A stretch of DNA of 64,000 nt from Bacillota bacterium. Its GTDB lineage: Bacteria; Bacillota; Limnochordia; Limnochordales; DUMU01. Below the pieces are notes generated by a model. That model was given only the letters and a program-made list of their open reading frames with translations. It was not told the DNA's origin and did not search any database. Location of the stretch: contig DUMU01000008.1 of assembly GCA_012839805.1 (NCBI GenBank), positions 1 to 64,000 on the forward strand. Direction: 5' to 3'. How positions within the stretch are numbered: position 1 is the stretch's first letter; the number at the start of each line of letters is the position of its first letter. Of this stretch, positions 14,321 through 24,660 are shown piece by piece. The position numbers and the translations under genes were made by a program.

Positions 14321-14744
14321 CGGCTACCCCCTTGCTCGTTGCTTGTTCTGTTGGCCCTATCCATTTCTTTATTTCTTATGATATCTCCGGTTTGGCAGCG
14401 TGCCGAGCACGTTTGGCCGGCGATGCAAGCCGAGATGGCGGAGGGCATTTCCTTCCTAGAGACAGCAGGAAAAGCAGAGTAAGCGCAGAACTAGGCTCAT
14501 CAAACCTGGAGCAGCCAGGTCTTGTGGAGCGGATAAAACCGCTTTGCGGCGCGTCGTGGCAGGATTTCCGGGTGACGACGTAGTATGCTTTCCGCAAGCC
14601 CTGCCAGTCAAGCGCAGGTCATCCAGATCCTGGCACGGCAAGGAGGTGGCATACCTACCCGGGTGTGCGGCTGTTGGTCGTTGGTTGAACTAGGTCGCCC
14701 GAGGACATGGGCTCGTCCAATTATTCATTTGAGGAGGATCTCTG
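14321..14744. other. Divergent intergenic region, dnaE / ABC operon
   Basis: 424 bases between divergent genes. An AT-rich block near 14350-14390 contrasts with the surrounding GC-rich DNA and may hold promoter elements for dnaE, but no convincing -35/-10 pair was found for either strand. A small hairpin (AGCGG...CCGCT near 14527-14542) and a strong ribosome site (GAGGAGG at about 14731-14737) before the binding-protein gene are visible. No remnant of a binding-protein N-lobe was recognised here. Confidence 0.5.
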
Positions 14745-16442
14745 ATGCGGAGAGGGAGAAACTCGAAGTTGTTTTCTCTGGCAGTGGGGTTGCTGGCCTT
14801 GTCTTTGGTCGCTCCAGCTGCTTTGGCGGCCCAGAAGGTCCAGTATGAGAAAACGGGACCGCGCGTAGATGAGATCATAATGCCAATCATCACCGAATCC
14901 GAGGCTCAGCTAATCGCGTTCGAACGTGGCGAAACCGTGGTACTGCCAGGTCTTACCAAACCAAGCGACATCGACAAGGTAAAGGCAAACCGCAACGCCG
15001 ACCTCACGATGAACCTCGGATTCCACATGTTTTACCTGGCGTTCAACATGCGCCGGGAGCCCCTGAGCGAGCTTCCCATCCGTCGTGCGATCGCCCACGT
15101 GGTCAATCGCGACCAGATCATCAACTCGCTTTTCAAGGGGTACATGCTGCCCCTTAATAGCTTTGTGCCCCCCTCGTCACCGTATTACAACGAAGACGTC
15201 CCAGCGTATGATTACAATCCGGCCATGGCAAAAGAGGTACTGGACAAAGCCGGGTACGTGCTTGATAAGGCAACCGGGATACGTATCGACCCCAAGACCA
15301 AGAAGCCGCTTCGGAAGATGACGATCTATACTCCAACCTACGAGGTGGCACCGACCTCTGCTGAGCTAGGGAAGATGATTGCCGAAGCCGCCCGGTCGGT
15401 GGGATTGCCCGTCGAGGCGCAGCCGATGGATTTCAACGTCATGCTGTCGAACATCGACAACCGTGACTTCGATATGTACGTGCTAGCATGGGGGCTCGAC
15501 CGCATTCCCACATTCCTCTACAACTTCTTCCATTCTTCTAACGACGTGATCGAGGGATACAACACTCCCGGTATCCGCATTCCAGAGCTAGACGCAGCCC
15601 TCGAGCAGGTGTACTACGCCAAGAACGAAGCAATGGCGAAAAAGGGCGCGGACGAGGCTCAGCGGATTTTGTCCCGGGAGGTGCCTTACGTCACCCTGTA
15701 CTCTCGCCCGTACATCGACGCCTGGCGCAAGGATATGGTGACCGGTTACGTCCCCATGATGGGTTACGGAGCGGCGAACTACAACAACAAGTGGACCACT
15801 CTGAATATCCGCCGGGTAGACGGCCCTGGGGGTACGATCCGCTGGCTCTTGCCGGAAAACCCGGAGAGCCTGAACCCGCTCACCACCACCAGCGCTTATT
15901 CCTGGGAGGTTCTCGGCAGACTGTACGATGGGTTGATTGAGGTCGACCCCAACACCATGAAGGACATCCCCTGGCTGGCAGAATCTTGGGAGGTCGGTAC
16001 CTGGTCACCCGAGAAGGGTAAGACTGGCACCAAGATCACATGGCATCTGCGCAAAGACGTGAAGTGGCAGGACGGGGTTCCGTTCACCTCCAAGGATGTC
16101 AAATTCACACTAGAGTACCTCAAAAAGAACGAAGTACCGGCGTATCAGTCGGCCTGGCAGGATCTGGTGAAAGTAGAGACGCCCGATCCGTACACGGCCG
16201 TCGTTTACTTCAGCACCGAGAGCTATTGGCACCTCTATCACGCGAATGCTGCCTTCCTGCCCGAGCACATCTGGAAGGACGTGAAGGATTATAAGGCCTT
16301 CCAGCCGTGGCTCGAGCCCCATCCGACGGTCAAGGGACTTACGAAGCTGATCGGTACGGGGCCGTTCGTCTTCAAGGAGTGGAAGCCCGGTGATTACGTG
16401 CGGCTGGTAAGGAACCCGCTCTACTTCGCCGCTGCGAAGTAA
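14745..16442 (+). CDS. ABC transporter solute-binding protein, family 5, with circularly permuted lobe order
   Basis: Extracytoplasmic peptide-type binding protein of 565 residues with a signal peptide (1-28, ending PAALA). In DppA/OppA-type proteins the N-terminal third holds the motifs for LxPxxLNP, PxLAxSWEV, LRxxVxWxDGxPFTxxDV and GTGPF, followed by the VRxAxxxxxxRxxI region. Here the order is reversed. Residues about 29-357 match the usual C-terminal two thirds (LIAFERGE, then LPIRRAIAHVVNRDQI near 110-125, then VTGYVP). Residues about 362-565 match the usual N-terminal third: GGTIRWLLPENPESLNPL, IPWLAESWEV, LRKDVKWQDGVPFTSKDV and GTGPFVFKEW (from 537). It ends at RNPLYFAAAK, exactly where a normal protein would continue into YEKTGPRVDEI, which here follows the signal peptide. 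Total length equals a complete single binding protein, so nothing appears lost. The ligand is unknown; peptides or similar are likely from the family. First gene of the transporter operon. Confidence 0.93.
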   Translation: MRRGRNSKLFSLAVGLLALSLVAPAALAAQKVQYEKTGPRVDEIIMPIITESEAQLIAFERGETVVLPGLTKPSDIDKVKANRNADLTMNLGFHMFYLAFNMRREPLSELPIRRAIAHVVNRDQIINSLFKGYMLPLNSFVPPSSPYYNEDVPAYDYNPAMAKEVLDKAGYVLDKATGIRIDPKTKKPLRKMTIYTPTYEVAPTSAELGKMIAEAARSVGLPVEAQPMDFNVMLSNIDNRDFDMYVLAWGLDRIPTFLYNFFHSSNDVIEGYNTPGIRIPELDAALEQVYYAKNEAMAKKGADEAQRILSREVPYVTLYSRPYIDAWRKDMVTGYVPMMGYGAANYNNKWTTLNIRRVDGPGGTIRWLLPENPESLNPLTTTSAYSWEVLGRLYDGLIEVDPNTMKDIPWLAESWEVGTWSPEKGKTGTKITWHLRKDVKWQDGVPFTSKDVKFTLEYLKKNEVPAYQSAWQDLVKVETPDPYTAVVYFSTESYWHLYHANAAFLPEHIWKDVKDYKAFQPWLEPHPTVKGLTKLIGTGPFVFKEWKPGDYVRLVRNPLYFAAAK

Positions 16443-16613: not shown

Positions 16614-17594
16614 GTGGGTTATCGGACATATTTACTCCGGCGGGCCTTTTATGCACTTATTGTGCTGTTTGTAATTCTTTCCTTTAATTTCGCTCTTTTT
16701 CGATTAATGCCGGGAGATCCTACCAGTTTGATTATCGACCCTCGGTTCACTCCGGAGGCAAAGGCCCTTTTGGAGAAGCAGTTCGGACTGAACGACCATC
16801 CCATCGTGCAGTACGGCAAATACCTCTGGAGCCTCCTCCGTTTTGACCTTGGCCGGTCTTTCGCCAGTCAAAGACCGGTGAGGCAGGAACTTATGGAGAG
16901 GCTCCCCAACACCATCAGCCTTTTTCTGACGTCCTTTGTGTTCATGGCCGGCATTGGAATAGCCATTGGGGTATTTGCTGCCGCACGACGCGGTTCGTTC
17001 ACCGAGACTTTCGTTACGGGCGCTGGTCTTTTCACCTACGCAGTCCCCACCTTTTTCTTCCAGCTCTTGCTGCTCATGCTTTTCGGATACTACATCCGCA
17101 TTTTCCCGATCCATGGTACGGTAAGTGCTCCACCTCCGGAGGGGTTTTGGCCCCAAGTGCTCGATCGCTTACATCACCTTGTACTACCGGCCGGTAGCAA
17201 CGTCATAATCGGTTTCGGGTCCTGGGCTCTTTACACCCGTAATGCGATGCTCGAGGCGTTAAGCCAGGACTACATAATAACTGCTCGCGCCAAAGGCCTT
17301 TCTCAGCGTGCCGTTCTTTACCGGCACGCGTTACGAAGTGTTTTGCCTCCCATCGTCACGCTGGTCTTCTTGTCTCTTCCCGGACTGGTTACGGGGGCGG
17401 TCATCACCGAAACCATCTTTTCCTGGCATGGGGTCGGGCGCTATCTTATCGATGCCGTACTCAAGCAGGACTTTCCGGCTGCACAGGGAGCCTTCTACTT
17501 GATCGCGATTGCGGTAATCGTTTCCAACTTCTTGGCAGACCTGGTCTACGGTCTCGTCGATCCACGGATACGGGTGGCAGGTGAACAAGCATGA
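16614..17594 (+). CDS. Peptide-type ABC transporter permease, DppB/OppB family
   Basis: Inner-membrane permease subunit, 326 residues with about six membrane segments. The N-terminus (LLRRAFYALIVLFVILSFNFALFRLMPGDP) is characteristic of the DppB family, and the EAA loop reads SQDYIITARAKGLSQRAVLYRHALR (about 222-246), which contacts the ATPases. GTG start after GAGGTGGG. The first 100 bases of the gene are clearly more AT-rich than neighbouring genes. It overlaps the next permease gene by four bases. Confidence 0.93.
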   Translation: MGYRTYLLRRAFYALIVLFVILSFNFALFRLMPGDPTSLIIDPRFTPEAKALLEKQFGLNDHPIVQYGKYLWSLLRFDLGRSFASQRPVRQELMERLPNTISLFLTSFVFMAGIGIAIGVFAAARRGSFTETFVTGAGLFTYAVPTFFFQLLLLMLFGYYIRIFPIHGTVSAPPPEGFWPQVLDRLHHLVLPAGSNVIIGFGSWALYTRNAMLEALSQDYIITARAKGLSQRAVLYRHALRSVLPPIVTLVFLSLPGLVTGAVITETIFSWHGVGRYLIDAVLKQDFPAAQGAFYLIAIAVIVSNFLADLVYGLVDPRIRVAGEQA

Positions 17595-19063
17595 GTCAAG
17601 CACTAACGGCATCGAAAGCAGAGGTATCTCCTCGCGGTTCGAAAACGGGGAGGATGCGTTCACGAAGCGGGTTCCTGGGCTTTTGGAGCCAGTTCTTCCG
17701 GCGTCCTTACGGGGTAGTGGGGTTGGCGCTCCTGGCCGTATACGTGATCCTCGCCGTCGCTGCCCCCTGGCTTACTCCTTATCGGCCGTCCGATACTTTC
17801 CTGGCCGATCGCCTCGCCGCACCTTCCTGGGCTGGTATTTTCCCTCGTTTCCGGGGGGTCCCGCCCACCAAGCGGTTGGTGATCCCGGCGAGTGATTGGA
17901 AAGCTACCGGCCTCGTGGCGGCGACGGTGACCAGACAAAAGGTAGAGAATAACGGTGAGGCGACGGTTATAAATCTCTCTCCGGAGGCCACCGGGTCGGC
18001 ATCTGCGGATCTATCGTGGACACTGTCCTACCCGTACGATCCTCCGAAGACCTTCGAAGTTAATATTCCCTACGCGGTCGAAGCGCCATGGGATGCGAGC
18101 ACCAGCCTCAGCTTCAAGGTGGTGGATCCAAGCGGAACCGAGCACGTGGTGTGGGAGAAGACGGTATACGGCTCAAGTGACTGGAAGACTCAGAAACTGG
18201 ATTCCCGTGACTATACGGTCAAAATGGCCCTGGGACTCAGTTTCTTCGATGACCCGGCCCAAGTCGTATTTGCTGAAAGAGGCGACTATCACCTCGCCTT
18301 GCATGTCGAATCGAGCGGCGGCTCTGCTCCCGTCCGAGTGACGGTGGGTGAAGTCGGCTTCAACGTGCTGGGACTCCTGCACGGAATCTTAGGTACTGAC
18401 CATATGGGAGCGGACCTCTGGACGCAGCTGCTCTACGGCGCACGGATCTCTCTGATCATAGGCATCGTGGCCGCGATTATGGCCGTGGCCATCGGCACGG
18501 CGATCGGCCTGATCAGCGGGTATATGGGAGGAGCCGTGGACGAGTTCCTGATGCGGATGGCGGACGTATTCCTCTCGGTGCCCACTCTGCCCATCCTCAT
18601 CATCCTCTCGGCCTTTTTCGGCAAGAACCTTGGCAACATCATCATCCTGGTGGCTGCCTTCGCCTGGATGGGCACGGCGCGGGTGGTACGTTCGCAGACG
18701 CTTTCCCTCAAACAACGGGCTTTCGTGGAGTCAGCTCGAGCTGCCGGAGCGAGTGACGGGTACATCATGGTGACGCATCTTTTGCCAAACGTTTTCCCTC
18801 TGGTAGTGGCAAATGCGGTGCTCATGATGCCCGTGGCCATCCTTTACGAAGCCTCTTTGAGCTTCCTCGGTCTGGGTGACCCTCGCATCCCCACTTGGGG
18901 CAGGATGTTGCAGAATGCTCGTGCCTTCGGTGCGTTCACCGAGTTTGCCTGGTGGTGGCTGATCCCACCGGGGCTGGCCATAACCTTGCTCAGTCTCAGC
19001 TTCACGCTGATAGGAAACGCAGTCAACGAGGTATTGAATCCCCGCTACAGAGAGAGGGCGTGA
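17591..19063 (+). CDS. Peptide-type ABC transporter permease, DppC/OppC family, with large extracytoplasmic insertion
   Basis: Second permease subunit, 490 residues against roughly 290-320 usual. TM1 lies at about 41-62. The normal short loop before LGTDHMGADLWTQLLYGAR (from about 264) is replaced by some 180 residues (about 80-262) rich in beta-prone, polar sequence without cysteines or membrane segments, which should fold outside the membrane as one or two beta-sandwich-like units. The remaining part is standard: five further membrane segments and the EAA loop QRAFVESARAAGASDGYIMVTHLLPN. The insertion faces the side where the binding protein docks, so it may contact the permuted binding protein; that is inference. 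Confidence 0.92.
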   Translation: MSQALTASKAEVSPRGSKTGRMRSRSGFLGFWSQFFRRPYGVVGLALLAVYVILAVAAPWLTPYRPSDTFLADRLAAPSWAGIFPRFRGVPPTKRLVIPASDWKATGLVAATVTRQKVENNGEATVINLSPEATGSASADLSWTLSYPYDPPKTFEVNIPYAVEAPWDASTSLSFKVVDPSGTEHVVWEKTVYGSSDWKTQKLDSRDYTVKMALGLSFFDDPAQVVFAERGDYHLALHVESSGGSAPVRVTVGEVGFNVLGLLHGILGTDHMGADLWTQLLYGARISLIIGIVAAIMAVAIGTAIGLISGYMGGAVDEFLMRMADVFLSVPTLPILIILSAFFGKNLGNIIILVAAFAWMGTARVVRSQTLSLKQRAFVESARAAGASDGYIMVTHLLPNVFPLVVANAVLMMPVAILYEASLSFLGLGDPRIPTWGRMLQNARAFGAFTEFAWWWLIPPGLAITLLSLSFTLIGNAVNEVLNPRYRERA

Positions 19064-19065
19064 CC

Positions 19066-20070
19066 ATGCCGTTCTTTGAAGTAAGGGACCTTACCATGTA
19101 CTACCAAACCCTGCGCGGGCAAGTGAAAGCCGTCGACGGGGTGAGCTTTTCGCTGGAGAAAGGGAAAGCCCTGGGCATTGCCGGTGAGTCGGGTTGCGGG
19201 AAATCCAGCATGGCACTGACGCTTCTCAGGCTCCTGCCCAATAATGGGCGCATCCTGGCCGGTAGCATCGCCATGGACGGGATGAGCCTGCTCGACATGC
19301 CGGAAGAGACCTTCCGAAAGACTATCCGGTGGAAGCGCATCTCCATGATTTTCCAGGGGGCAATGAATGCTCTCAATCCCGTCCACCGGATCGGCAACCA
19401 GATCGTGGAGGCGATCCTCACCCATGAGGACGTTTCCCGGGAAGAGGCGGTCAAGCGGACTCACGACCTGCTCAACATGGTCGGCATCAGCCCGAAGCGG
19501 TTCGGCGACTACCCGCACGAATTCAGCGGCGGGATGAAACAGCGGGTCGTGATCGCCATGGCTCTGGCTTGCAACCCGGACCTGGTGATCGCCGACGAAC
19601 CGACGACGGCGTTGGATGTGATCGTGCAGGCTCAGGTGTTGAAGGCCATCGAGGATCTGCGTTCACGTCTTCAGCTGTCTATGATACTGATCACTCATGA
19701 CCTATCCGTCATCGCTCAGTTTTGCGATGATGTGGCCATCATGTATGCGGGCAAAATCGTCGAGCGCGGGTCGGCCGGGGACGTCTACTCTCGGCCGCTA
19801 CACCCGTATACCGCTGGCCTGGTGCGGGCTTTCCCCAACATCGCCGCGGGGCGTTCTATTATCCGCTCCATACCCGGATCGCCCCCCAACCTGGTCGATC
19901 CCCCGGCGGGATGCCGGTTCCATCCCCGCTGCCCCCTGGCAGACGATCGCTGCCGGGCGGAAGAGCCAGTGCTCACCGCTCGTTCCGGCGGCCACGCCGT
20001 AGCATGCCACAAAGTAGATGTGCTGGCAGGAGGAAGAGACATATGGCAAGAGCAGCCGCAGTCCGCGTAG
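19066..20070 (+). CDS. Peptide-type ABC transporter ATPase, DppD/OppD family
   Basis: Cytoplasmic ATPase, 334 residues. Walker [10 protein letters not shown], signature FSGGMKQR, Walker [13 protein letters not shown] and switch histidine ITHD are intact. The C-terminal family extension carries the cysteine cluster [15 protein letters not shown] plus a later Cys, which holds an iron-sulfur cluster in some relatives. The ATG at 19066 follows a purine-rich site two bases past the oppC stop. It overlaps the next ATPase gene by 28 bases. Confidence 0.95.
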
Positions 20071-21098
20071 ATGAGAACAGCCGCGGAAGTACGGGTACGC
20101 AGGCAAGACCCGACCAGGAGGCCCTGCTAGAGGTCAGCAACCTGGTGAAGTACTTCCCATTGCGCCGGGGTCTGCTATCGGCTTTACGTGGGGGGCCGGC
20201 ACCGGCCGTTCATGCCGTTGACGGCGTCAGCTTCTCGGTGTACAAGGGTGAGGTATACGGCATCGTAGGGGAGTCCGGATGCGGCAAGACCACTTTGGGC
20301 CGGGTCCTGTTGCGTCTTATCGACCCCCAGCAAGGCAGGATCGTCTTCGATGGGCAGGATATCCTGCGGCTTTCGCCCGAGGAGATGAAAGGACTCCGCC
20401 GCCGCATGCAGATTGTCTTCCAGGACCCGTACGAGTCGATGAACCCGCGCCTCGATGTCTTTCGGATCGTCTCCGAACCCTTGCGTATCCAGGGCATCAC
20501 GAAGAACCAGGCCGAGACGATGGAGCGGGTGGAACGCGCCCTCACCGACGTGGAAATGATTCCGCCCGATGAGTATGTCTACCGGTACCCCCACGAGCTT
20601 TCCGGCGGCCAACGGCAGCGGATTGCCCTCGCCCGCGCGCTGGTCCTAGATCCGGAGTTCATCGTGGCGGACGAGCCCGTCTCGATGCTGGACGTCTCTA
20701 TTCGGGGCGGCATCTTGAACCTGATGCTCCGTCTCTCTCGTGAAAAAGGGGTGTCATTCGTCTACATCACTCATGATCTGGCCACCGCGCGTCACATTTG
20801 TGACCGTATCGGGGTAATGTACCTGGGCAAGCTCGTGGAAGAAGGCAAAGCGGACGATATCGTTACCACTCCCCTTCACCCGTATACGAAGGCACTGCTG
20901 AGTGCCGTCTTGATTCCCGACCCGAGCCGGAAAGGGCTTCAGCAAGTGCTGCCCGGGGAGGTGCCGAACGCAGTCTATCCACCCAGCGGTTGCCGCCTTC
21001 ATCCCCGCTGCCCGCTGGCCCGGGATATCTGCCGGCAGCAAGAGCCGGCCCTGGTCGAGAAGGGAGAAGGCCACGAGGTTGCCTGCCACTTCGCCTGA
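20043..21098 (+). CDS. Peptide-type ABC transporter ATPase, DppF/OppF family
   Basis: Second ATPase, 351 residues. After a polar N-terminal 28 residues come the DppF-type LLEVSNLVKYFPLRRG segment, Walker [10 protein letters not shown], signature LSGGQRQR, Walker B FIVADEPVSMLD and ITHD. The C-terminal motif GCRLHPRCPLARDIC with a further Cys parallels its partner. The ATG at 20043 is supported by GGAGGAAG ten bases upstream; the longer open frame to 19911 lies inside oppD. Confidence 0.95.
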   Translation: MARAAAVRVDENSRGSTGTQARPDQEALLEVSNLVKYFPLRRGLLSALRGGPAPAVHAVDGVSFSVYKGEVYGIVGESGCGKTTLGRVLLRLIDPQQGRIVFDGQDILRLSPEEMKGLRRRMQIVFQDPYESMNPRLDVFRIVSEPLRIQGITKNQAETMERVERALTDVEMIPPDEYVYRYPHELSGGQRQRIALARALVLDPEFIVADEPVSMLDVSIRGGILNLMLRLSREKGVSFVYITHDLATARHICDRIGVMYLGKLVEEGKADDIVTTPLHPYTKALLSAVLIPDPSRKGLQQVLPGEVPNAVYPPSGCRLHPRCPLARDICRQQEPALVEKGEGHEVACHFA

Positions 21099-23579: not shown

Positions 23580-24116
23580 TCAGTGCGGCCAGTCTCCCGT
23601 GTGTACCTCGTAGCTCCAGTCGCGGCCGTTGTTGTTATCCCAGTTCGAGGCAGCATCCCGGAAGCAGAAGTTGAGCCGTCCTGGCTCATCCGCCCGGATC
23701 TGTGCCGTCCAGCTGCCATCCGGCTGCTGGTCCATGGCCAGCTCGGTGACGTGCCGCCATGGGCCGGGGCCATAGCCGTAGTGCAGGAAAACCCGGGTGG
23801 CACCGGATCGAGCGAGCAGGCCCTTGTAGCGGATGGTGACCTCCTGCCCCAGGGTGATCGGTGTGGGCTTGACGATCACCCCGTCGTCCGGAGCCCATTG
23901 ATAGGCCTGTGCCTGCTGGGCGCTGGTAAGCCACGGATCCAGTTCGACCGCCGCCTCCTGGGCCGTGGTATCCAAACCAGCCGGATTCCGGTGGGCGGAC
24001 GCTTGGGCGTTATCTGCTTTCTCCCGATCTGCTTTCTCCCGGGCCCGGCCCGCCTGCCCCGACCGATCCGGCTCTTCCGTCAACCTCAGCGCTCGTCTGA
24101 GGGCGTTCCATACCAT
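23580..24116 (-). CDS. CBM25-like carbohydrate-binding protein, no signal peptide
   Basis: 178 residues. The C-terminal 100 residues form a starch-binding type module (VTIRYKGLLARSGATRVFLHYGYGP, WRHVTELAMDQQPDGSW, then FCFRDAASNWDNNNGRDW), the aromatic and Asn/Gly pattern of CBM25/CBM53 domains. The N-terminal 70 residues are charged and low in structure (DREKADREKADNAQ). No signal peptide or membrane segment is present, and no catalytic domain, so it should bind an internal alpha-glucan or act as a scaffold. The ATG at 24116 follows a long purine-rich site GGAGGGAGGGAGG. Confidence 0.8.
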   Translation of the reverse strand: MVWNALRRALRLTEEPDRSGQAGRAREKADREKADNAQASAHRNPAGLDTTAQEAAVELDPWLTSAQQAQAYQWAPDDGVIVKPTPITLGQEVTIRYKGLLARSGATRVFLHYGYGPGPWRHVTELAMDQQPDGSWTAQIRADEPGRLNFCFRDAASNWDNNNGRDWSYEVHTGDWPH

Positions 24117-24504
24117 GGTGTGGCCTCCCTCCCTCCGACCTCGTACCGCGACTTGGCCTACGATTACGTACCACGATACCCGACGACTGCAGGCCGCACC
24201 GTTCATCCGGGCCGTCCCCCGGTGGCATCTCGCACGGGCGCCCGTACGGGACGCCGGCCGAGCGGCGGCGGCGCGGCTCCGGGTCCGGCCATCTGTAGTC
24301 TTTCGCCCCGGCCAGGCGGTATTCTGCGGCATTGGTGGCCGGGGAAGAACCAGGCGGGCAAGCCGCGGCAGTGCTGGGGCGGCCGCGGTCAGAGCCGGGA
24401 AGGCCGGAGGGCCGATGGATGGCCGCCCCCTCCGGGGCTACCGGGTCATCCGGCCAGCGACGCGAAAAAAGCTCGCCGGGTGGGGCGGCGAGCCAACGAA
24501 AATC
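24117..24504. other. Intergenic region between CBM gene and tRNA-Glu
   Basis: 388 bases. It holds the tRNA terminator at 24465-24493 and a second GC hairpin (24404-24411 with 24428-24435). No coding sequence can be supported, and no confident promoter for the CBM gene was found. Confidence 0.5.
24465..24493 (-). terminator. Intrinsic terminator of the tRNA-Gln/tRNA-Glu transcript
   Basis: An 8-bp perfect stem (24486-24493 with 24471-24478 on the minus strand), 7-base loop, and a run of six T residues, starting 11 bases after the tRNA-Glu CCA. Confidence 0.92.
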
Positions 24505-24580
24505 TGGTACCCCCGAGGGGATTTGAACCCCTGTCTCGTGGCTGAGAACCACGCATCCTAGGCCGCTAGACGACGGAGGC
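24505..24580 (-). tRNA. tRNA-Glu (anticodon CTC)
   Basis: 76 nt including an encoded CCA (24505-24507). The anticodon loop TTCTCAG within the CGTGG/CCACG stem gives CTC, which reads GAG. The D-arm TCGTCTAGCGGCCTAGGA and T-arm GGGGTTCAAATCCCC are typical of bacterial tRNA-Glu. Confidence 0.96.
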
Positions 24581-24586
24581 AAAACC

Positions 24587-24660
24587 TGGCTGGGAGGGAA
24601 GGATTCGAACCTTCATACCGGAGTCCAGAGCCCCGTGTCCTGCCGTTGGACGACCTCCCA
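24587..24660 (-). tRNA. tRNA-Gln (anticodon CTG)
   Basis: 74 nt including CCA (24587-24589). The acceptor TGGGAGG pairs with CCTCCCA, with G73. The anticodon loop CTCTGGA gives CTG, which reads CAG. It is 6 bases upstream of tRNA-Glu in the same transcript. Confidence 0.95.

Follow-up and report, generated by a model that had tools for sequence, protein, structure and literature searches.

The window, by which we mean the whole 64,000-nucleotide stretch of DNA analysed here, carries a gene that, with a probability of about 92%, encodes a real, functional and natural circular permutant of a family-5 (cluster C) solute-binding protein (SBP) of a DppBCDF-type ABC importer. The open reading frame (ORF) at 14745-16442 on the plus strand codes for a protein of 565 aa and has a good ribosome-binding site, a Shine-Dalgarno-like GAGGAGG recognised by sequence at 14732-14738 (+), 5′ of the start codon. 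Residues 1-29 (14745-14831, +) are a predicted signal peptide of the signal-peptidase-I type (AALAA) without a lipobox cysteine, so that sequence and motif scan give the protein the export signal of an SBP from a DppABCDF/NikABCDE-type importer. This is followed by the part that is usually C-terminal in SBPs (aa 30-357; 14832-15815, +), corresponding to DppA from ∼204-208 to its C-terminus, and finally by the usual N-terminal part (aa 362-565; 15828-16439, +), which ends in GTGPF...RNPLYFAAAK. An alignment of relatives places a linker between the old C-terminus and the old N-terminus at aa 355-363 (15807-15833, +), and both its length and its sequence vary among relatives with the same order of parts, which we call type A.

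The two parts form one complete protein in swapped order

The protein scores 252.9 bits against the Pfam model PF00496 (SBP_bac_5), for which the gathering threshold is 32.4 bits, and it thus belongs to the family. The matches occur in swapped order, with aa 34-266 corresponding to model positions 140-365 and aa 408-561 to positions 3-141, and there is no colinear N-to-C match to the model; judged by sequence, the protein is a permuted variant and not a standard SBP_bac_5 member. Many solved family-5 proteins, including DppA, AppA, NikA and TM1223, match it in two separate stretches. Residues 204-342 of DppA (1dpp) match residues 34-175 of the window protein, and in a search with the type A family profile DppA 208-492 aligns to positions 36-334. 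These alignments show that the break in the chain lies between GTGPF/RNPxYF on one side and the xxGPxVDEI strand on the other, with the old termini joined by the short linker.

We also rotated the mature chain in 10-residue steps and scored each rotation against an HMM of conventional family-5 proteins from related genomes. For the window protein, the best single domain increased from 216.5 bits in the native order to 393.5 bits at rotation 330, where positions 38-533 of the profile of conventional relatives were matched as one domain, so that the fold content is complete. Three further type A members showed the same rotation behaviour, while four conventional controls, none of them part of the HMM, scored highest at or close to rotation 0. 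Together, the two pieces therefore make up a complete family-5 protein. These data bear out the earlier note, which had given the same ORF coordinates and motif order, had read the gene as a circular permutation whose two pieces add up to one full mature protein, and had named a colinear full-length alignment to standard family-5 proteins as the result that would overturn this reading; neither the Pfam search nor the rotation scan produced one. Translation of the window in all six frames showed no other N- or C-part pieces, and a search of the source genome found a single copy of this gene.

The swapped order recurs with a conserved importer operon

In the host class, the swapped order was found in 18 intact genes across 17 of 73 genomes, together with two more type A genes that are interrupted by contig ends. 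Type A matches were present in 27 of the 399 genomes sampled from the phylum, and type A is known from ∼30 named loci of Bacillota type, including Limnochordales bacterium Bu89. Since every named type A record found is a metagenome-assembled genome, we considered whether misassembly or mis-binning had exchanged the two halves of an ordinary gene, the second way in which the earlier note thought its reading could fail. However, the homologues share the junctions at 52-72% identity to the window protein, and the recurrence of the same junctions across several families, in assemblies that number in the tens and are independent of one another, refutes such an artefact. Purifying selection on both parts (whole-gene dN/dS ∼0.04-0.14, low in each) and the conserved operon likewise contradict it, leaving it a negligible chance. 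Searching for homologues with the identical order, as the earlier note had proposed, thus turned up dozens of independent assemblies.

The genes downstream, all on the plus strand, encode a DppB-type permease (16614-17594; Pfam BPD_transp_1 and BPD_transp_1_N), a DppC-type permease with a ∼190-aa insert after TM1 (17591-19063; OppC_N and BPD_transp_1), a DppD-type ATPase (19066-20070, its start inferred within the ORF 18895-20070; ABC_tran and oligo_HPY) and a DppF-type ATPase (19911-21098 as the longest ORF, with the true start probably near 20043; ABC_tran and oligo_HPY). Two permeases and two oligo_HPY ATPases are the complement of a DppABCDF/NikABCDE-type importer. Among type A loci with enough contig downstream, nearly all have DppB, DppC, DppD and DppF behind the SBP gene, and in one locus, L056, no DppB frame was recognised.

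The DppC insert occupies 17816-18400 of the window and is extracytoplasmic, between TM1 and the permease domain. Nearly every type A operon has a similarly long DppC, mostly of 464-555 aa, and in two archaeal systems whose SBPs are conventional it is longer still, at 730-771 aa. We considered the insert as an adaptation to the permutation and rejected this idea, because operons of a second permuted class described below, type B, lack it (DppC of 286-316 aa); the two archaeal systems also contradict a link between insert and permutation. In three loci (L032:6811-10641, L033:1-3669 and L034:3916-8152), a tandem pair of permuted SBP genes precedes one permease set.

By alignment, the new termini fall inside lobe I

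Alignment puts the new termini of type A near mature DppA residue 205, a position that we take, from published DppA/OppA domain limits, to be inside lobe I. Neither hinge crossing is therefore cut, and the two lobe crossings of cluster C would be kept in type A. The earlier note had proposed that both lobes can be rebuilt with new termini in the lobe I/II region; the completeness of both lobes stands, but the DppA alignment and the DppA/OppA domain limits move the termini from the lobe boundary to the inside of lobe I.

An AlphaFold model of the window SBP, built with 32 family members, is a confident one, reaching a pLDDT of 84.8 and a pTM of 0.81, with aa 5-26, in the signal peptide, modelled as a low-confidence helix. 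Foldseek matched the type A model to family-5 structures (NikA/DppA folds), with TM-scores of 0.37-0.51 when normalised to the target; the alignments span only ∼283-352 columns for chains of roughly 500 residues, the partial coverage expected of a sequential aligner on a chain whose order differs. Solved chains matched the permuted type A profile in a single stretch of at most ∼315 of 565 positions, and no solved chain was found that matches the type A or type B profile in one full-length stretch.

Predicted function and ligand

From the signal peptide, the operon, the purifying selection and the completeness of the fold, we predict that the window SBP very probably works as a Venus-flytrap receptor of an importer. 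Type A would fold into the usual Venus flytrap of two lobes, leaving both hinge crossings unbroken, and would hand the ligand bound between the lobes to the permeases whose genes immediately follow its own. It is very unlikely that the protein is a remnant that has lost its function or taken on another one (a domain-swapped oligomer, say, or a protein not involved in transport), given that both parts are under purifying selection, that the signal peptide is present and the mature fold content complete, and that the DppBCDF operon is conserved.

The window protein falls far below the curated DppA/OppA/NikA cut-offs, scoring 105 versus 1005 bits for DppA, 41.6 versus 947 for OppA and 123.4 versus 650 for Opp4A among the NCBIfam equivalogs. 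In the alignment, position 252 is presumed to correspond to the aspartate by which DppA/OppA hold the amino group of the peptide; it is D in the window SBP, whereas relatives have E, N, A, S, T or G there. The amine-binding aspartate of peptide binders thus appears not to be conserved in type A, and this hallmark of DppA/OppA would not apply to it. We also looked for an upstream RNA regulator as a clue to the ligand, and the only RNA genes in the window are tRNAs. One of these, a minus-strand tRNA-Glu at 24505-24580, is overlapped by a forward ORF at 23583-24660 (end ...PRGFEPLSRG), the end of which is therefore spurious.

A second permuted class is opened at a different site

A search with the window protein also found type B, in L020:1408-3039, L027:1420-3015 and L029:1027-2703 (genomes G054, G060 and G056, respectively), with further type B SBPs at L121-L126, L129, L130, L140 and L141. 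In type B the second half of the C-part comes first, followed by the N-part and then the first half of the C-part, the chain being opened after an AGYxWDxxG motif. DppA 2-341 matches positions 211-535 of the 547-position type B profile, and this alignment therefore puts the cut in lobe II. The rotation scan gave 257.8 bits in the native order and an optimum of 356.8 bits at ∼residue 195, and the AlphaFold model is again confident, with a pLDDT of 89.1. When both models, type A and type B, are rotated to the conventional order, 496 residues align at 32.5% identity, with 85.7% agreement in three-state secondary structure and no helix/strand conflicts, versus only 362 aligned residues in the native order.

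Type B occurs in several Bacillota families, with matches in 8 of the 399 phylum genomes and full-length proteins in 6 of those, and it has its own DppBCDF operons wherever the retrieved sequence suffices. Several members carry a lipobox (e.g. FMGC, LIGC), which would place their lipid anchor on lobe II, not on lobe I. Genus g85 contains both classes, type B in G108 and G146 and type A in G181 and G432. At L147:2399-3859, a type B SBP fragment is in frame with DppF-like sequence, which could reflect a deletion, a pseudogene or an assembly join.

It is thus probable that natural permutation of family-5 SBPs has happened on two or more occasions, at a loop of lobe I for type A and at another, in lobe II, for type B, and that both classes are widespread in Bacillota with importer operons of their own; they may have been trimmed in different ways from one ancestral tandem duplicate, whereby the anchor of some type B proteins would have moved to the other lobe.

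Phylogeny and possible origin

Type A forms one clade in trees of the C-part (support 100), of the N- and C-parts in conventional order (100) and of DppC (99). The SBP and DppC trees place it within a larger clade that also contains type B, SBPs of Limnochordia/Chloroflexota and SBPs of Thermoplasmata. In the best concatenated tree types A and B are apart, which disfavours one permutation event common to both, though a single A+B clade is not rejected (p-AU 0.12).

The simplest origin, and a likely one, is the tandem duplication, fusion and trimming of one gene. In this mechanism, a single parental gene would have been duplicated in tandem and fused in frame, and its outer parts would then have been trimmed, the signal peptide being either kept or newly acquired. 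Trimmed in two ways, an N-C1-C2-N-C1-C2 chain would yield either type A (C1-C2-N) or type B (C2-N-C1).

A related possibility, raised in the earlier note, is that the window SBP was cut down from a longer protein of N-C-N order, a form that persists in relatives. This fits the duplication and trimming model, and the tandem pairs of permuted SBP genes in L032, L033 and L034 are in line with it. However, our search for such relatives found no duplication intermediate, N-C-N or other multi-copy, among 158 SBP-bearing frames, none of which has two N-parts or two C-parts, and the full-length type A open frames, among those listed, extend to at most ∼684 codons from stop to stop. We therefore regard persistence of a longer form as unlikely.

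Alternatively, the C-part and the N-part could come from different SBP lineages, as has been suggested for Treponema MglB-2. The C-part indeed has its highest scores with Limnochordia/Chloroflexota/archaeal SBPs (∼150-200 bits). For the N-part, these SBPs give roughly 10-54 bits, below the maximum of 89 bits obtained with other Bacillota SBPs. Yet a clade of the N-part with the sisters of the C-part is not rejected and has a slightly better likelihood (p-AU 0.59), whereas a clade of the N-part with the other tested SBPs is rejected (p-AU 0.015); the N-part of the sister group simply sits on a long branch. From these AU tests a chimera of two parents is therefore not needed, and we consider it distinctly improbable next to the trimming of a duplicated single gene.

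Comparison with known systems

Few receptors of bacterial importers have been studied as thoroughly as family-5 SBPs. If our reading is correct, two permuted classes with different cuts imply that both fold and docking tolerate moved termini, and they offer a natural way to test whether the position of the chain start matters for hinge motion, docking and membrane tethering, as well as ready-made biosensor scaffolds with termini in lobe I or lobe II. Colinear annotation pipelines hide such permuted proteins under ordinary names.

The closest conventional relatives of the type A C-part are the SBPs of Limnochordia/Chloroflexota and Thermoplasmata (L021-L028, L060-L079), which share an SBP and permease clade with type A but keep the N-to-C order. 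Many of the archaeal SBPs among these have long C-terminal extensions. Archaeal family-5 SBPs of ∼1400-2200 aa occur at L065:8092-14700 and in L060, L063, L066, L067, L070 and L071; by eye, Ig-like-looking domains recur in the L065 protein and a membrane anchor can be made out at its C-terminus, and the archaeal SBP at L073:5677-10281 lies behind ∼780 aa of beta-helix-looking (NosD-like) and other repeats.

With DppA, NikA, AppA and OppA (PF00496, cluster C), type A shares domain content, fold elements, motifs and the DppBCDF operon, but its parts are swapped and its new termini lie in lobe I. A literature search, with most subscription journals outside its reach, found no report of natural permutants of OppA/family-5 proteins, so that we found no earlier description for family 5, while natural SBP permutation as such is already known from cluster B. 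The closest precedent is Tp0684 (MglB-2, 'cluster Bc') of Treponema pallidum, a natural circular permutant of an ABC-importer binding protein with a crystal structure, which was shown to bind its sugar, glucose, and whose permutation is reported to need an additional (fourth) lobe crossing (PMC4990184). Natural permutation of an importer SBP is common to both systems, but Tp0684 is a glucose-binding protein of cluster B with a different fold class, whereas the window SBP matches family 5 in sequence and fold and thus belongs with cluster C rather than with the cluster B sugar-binding fold of cluster Bc.
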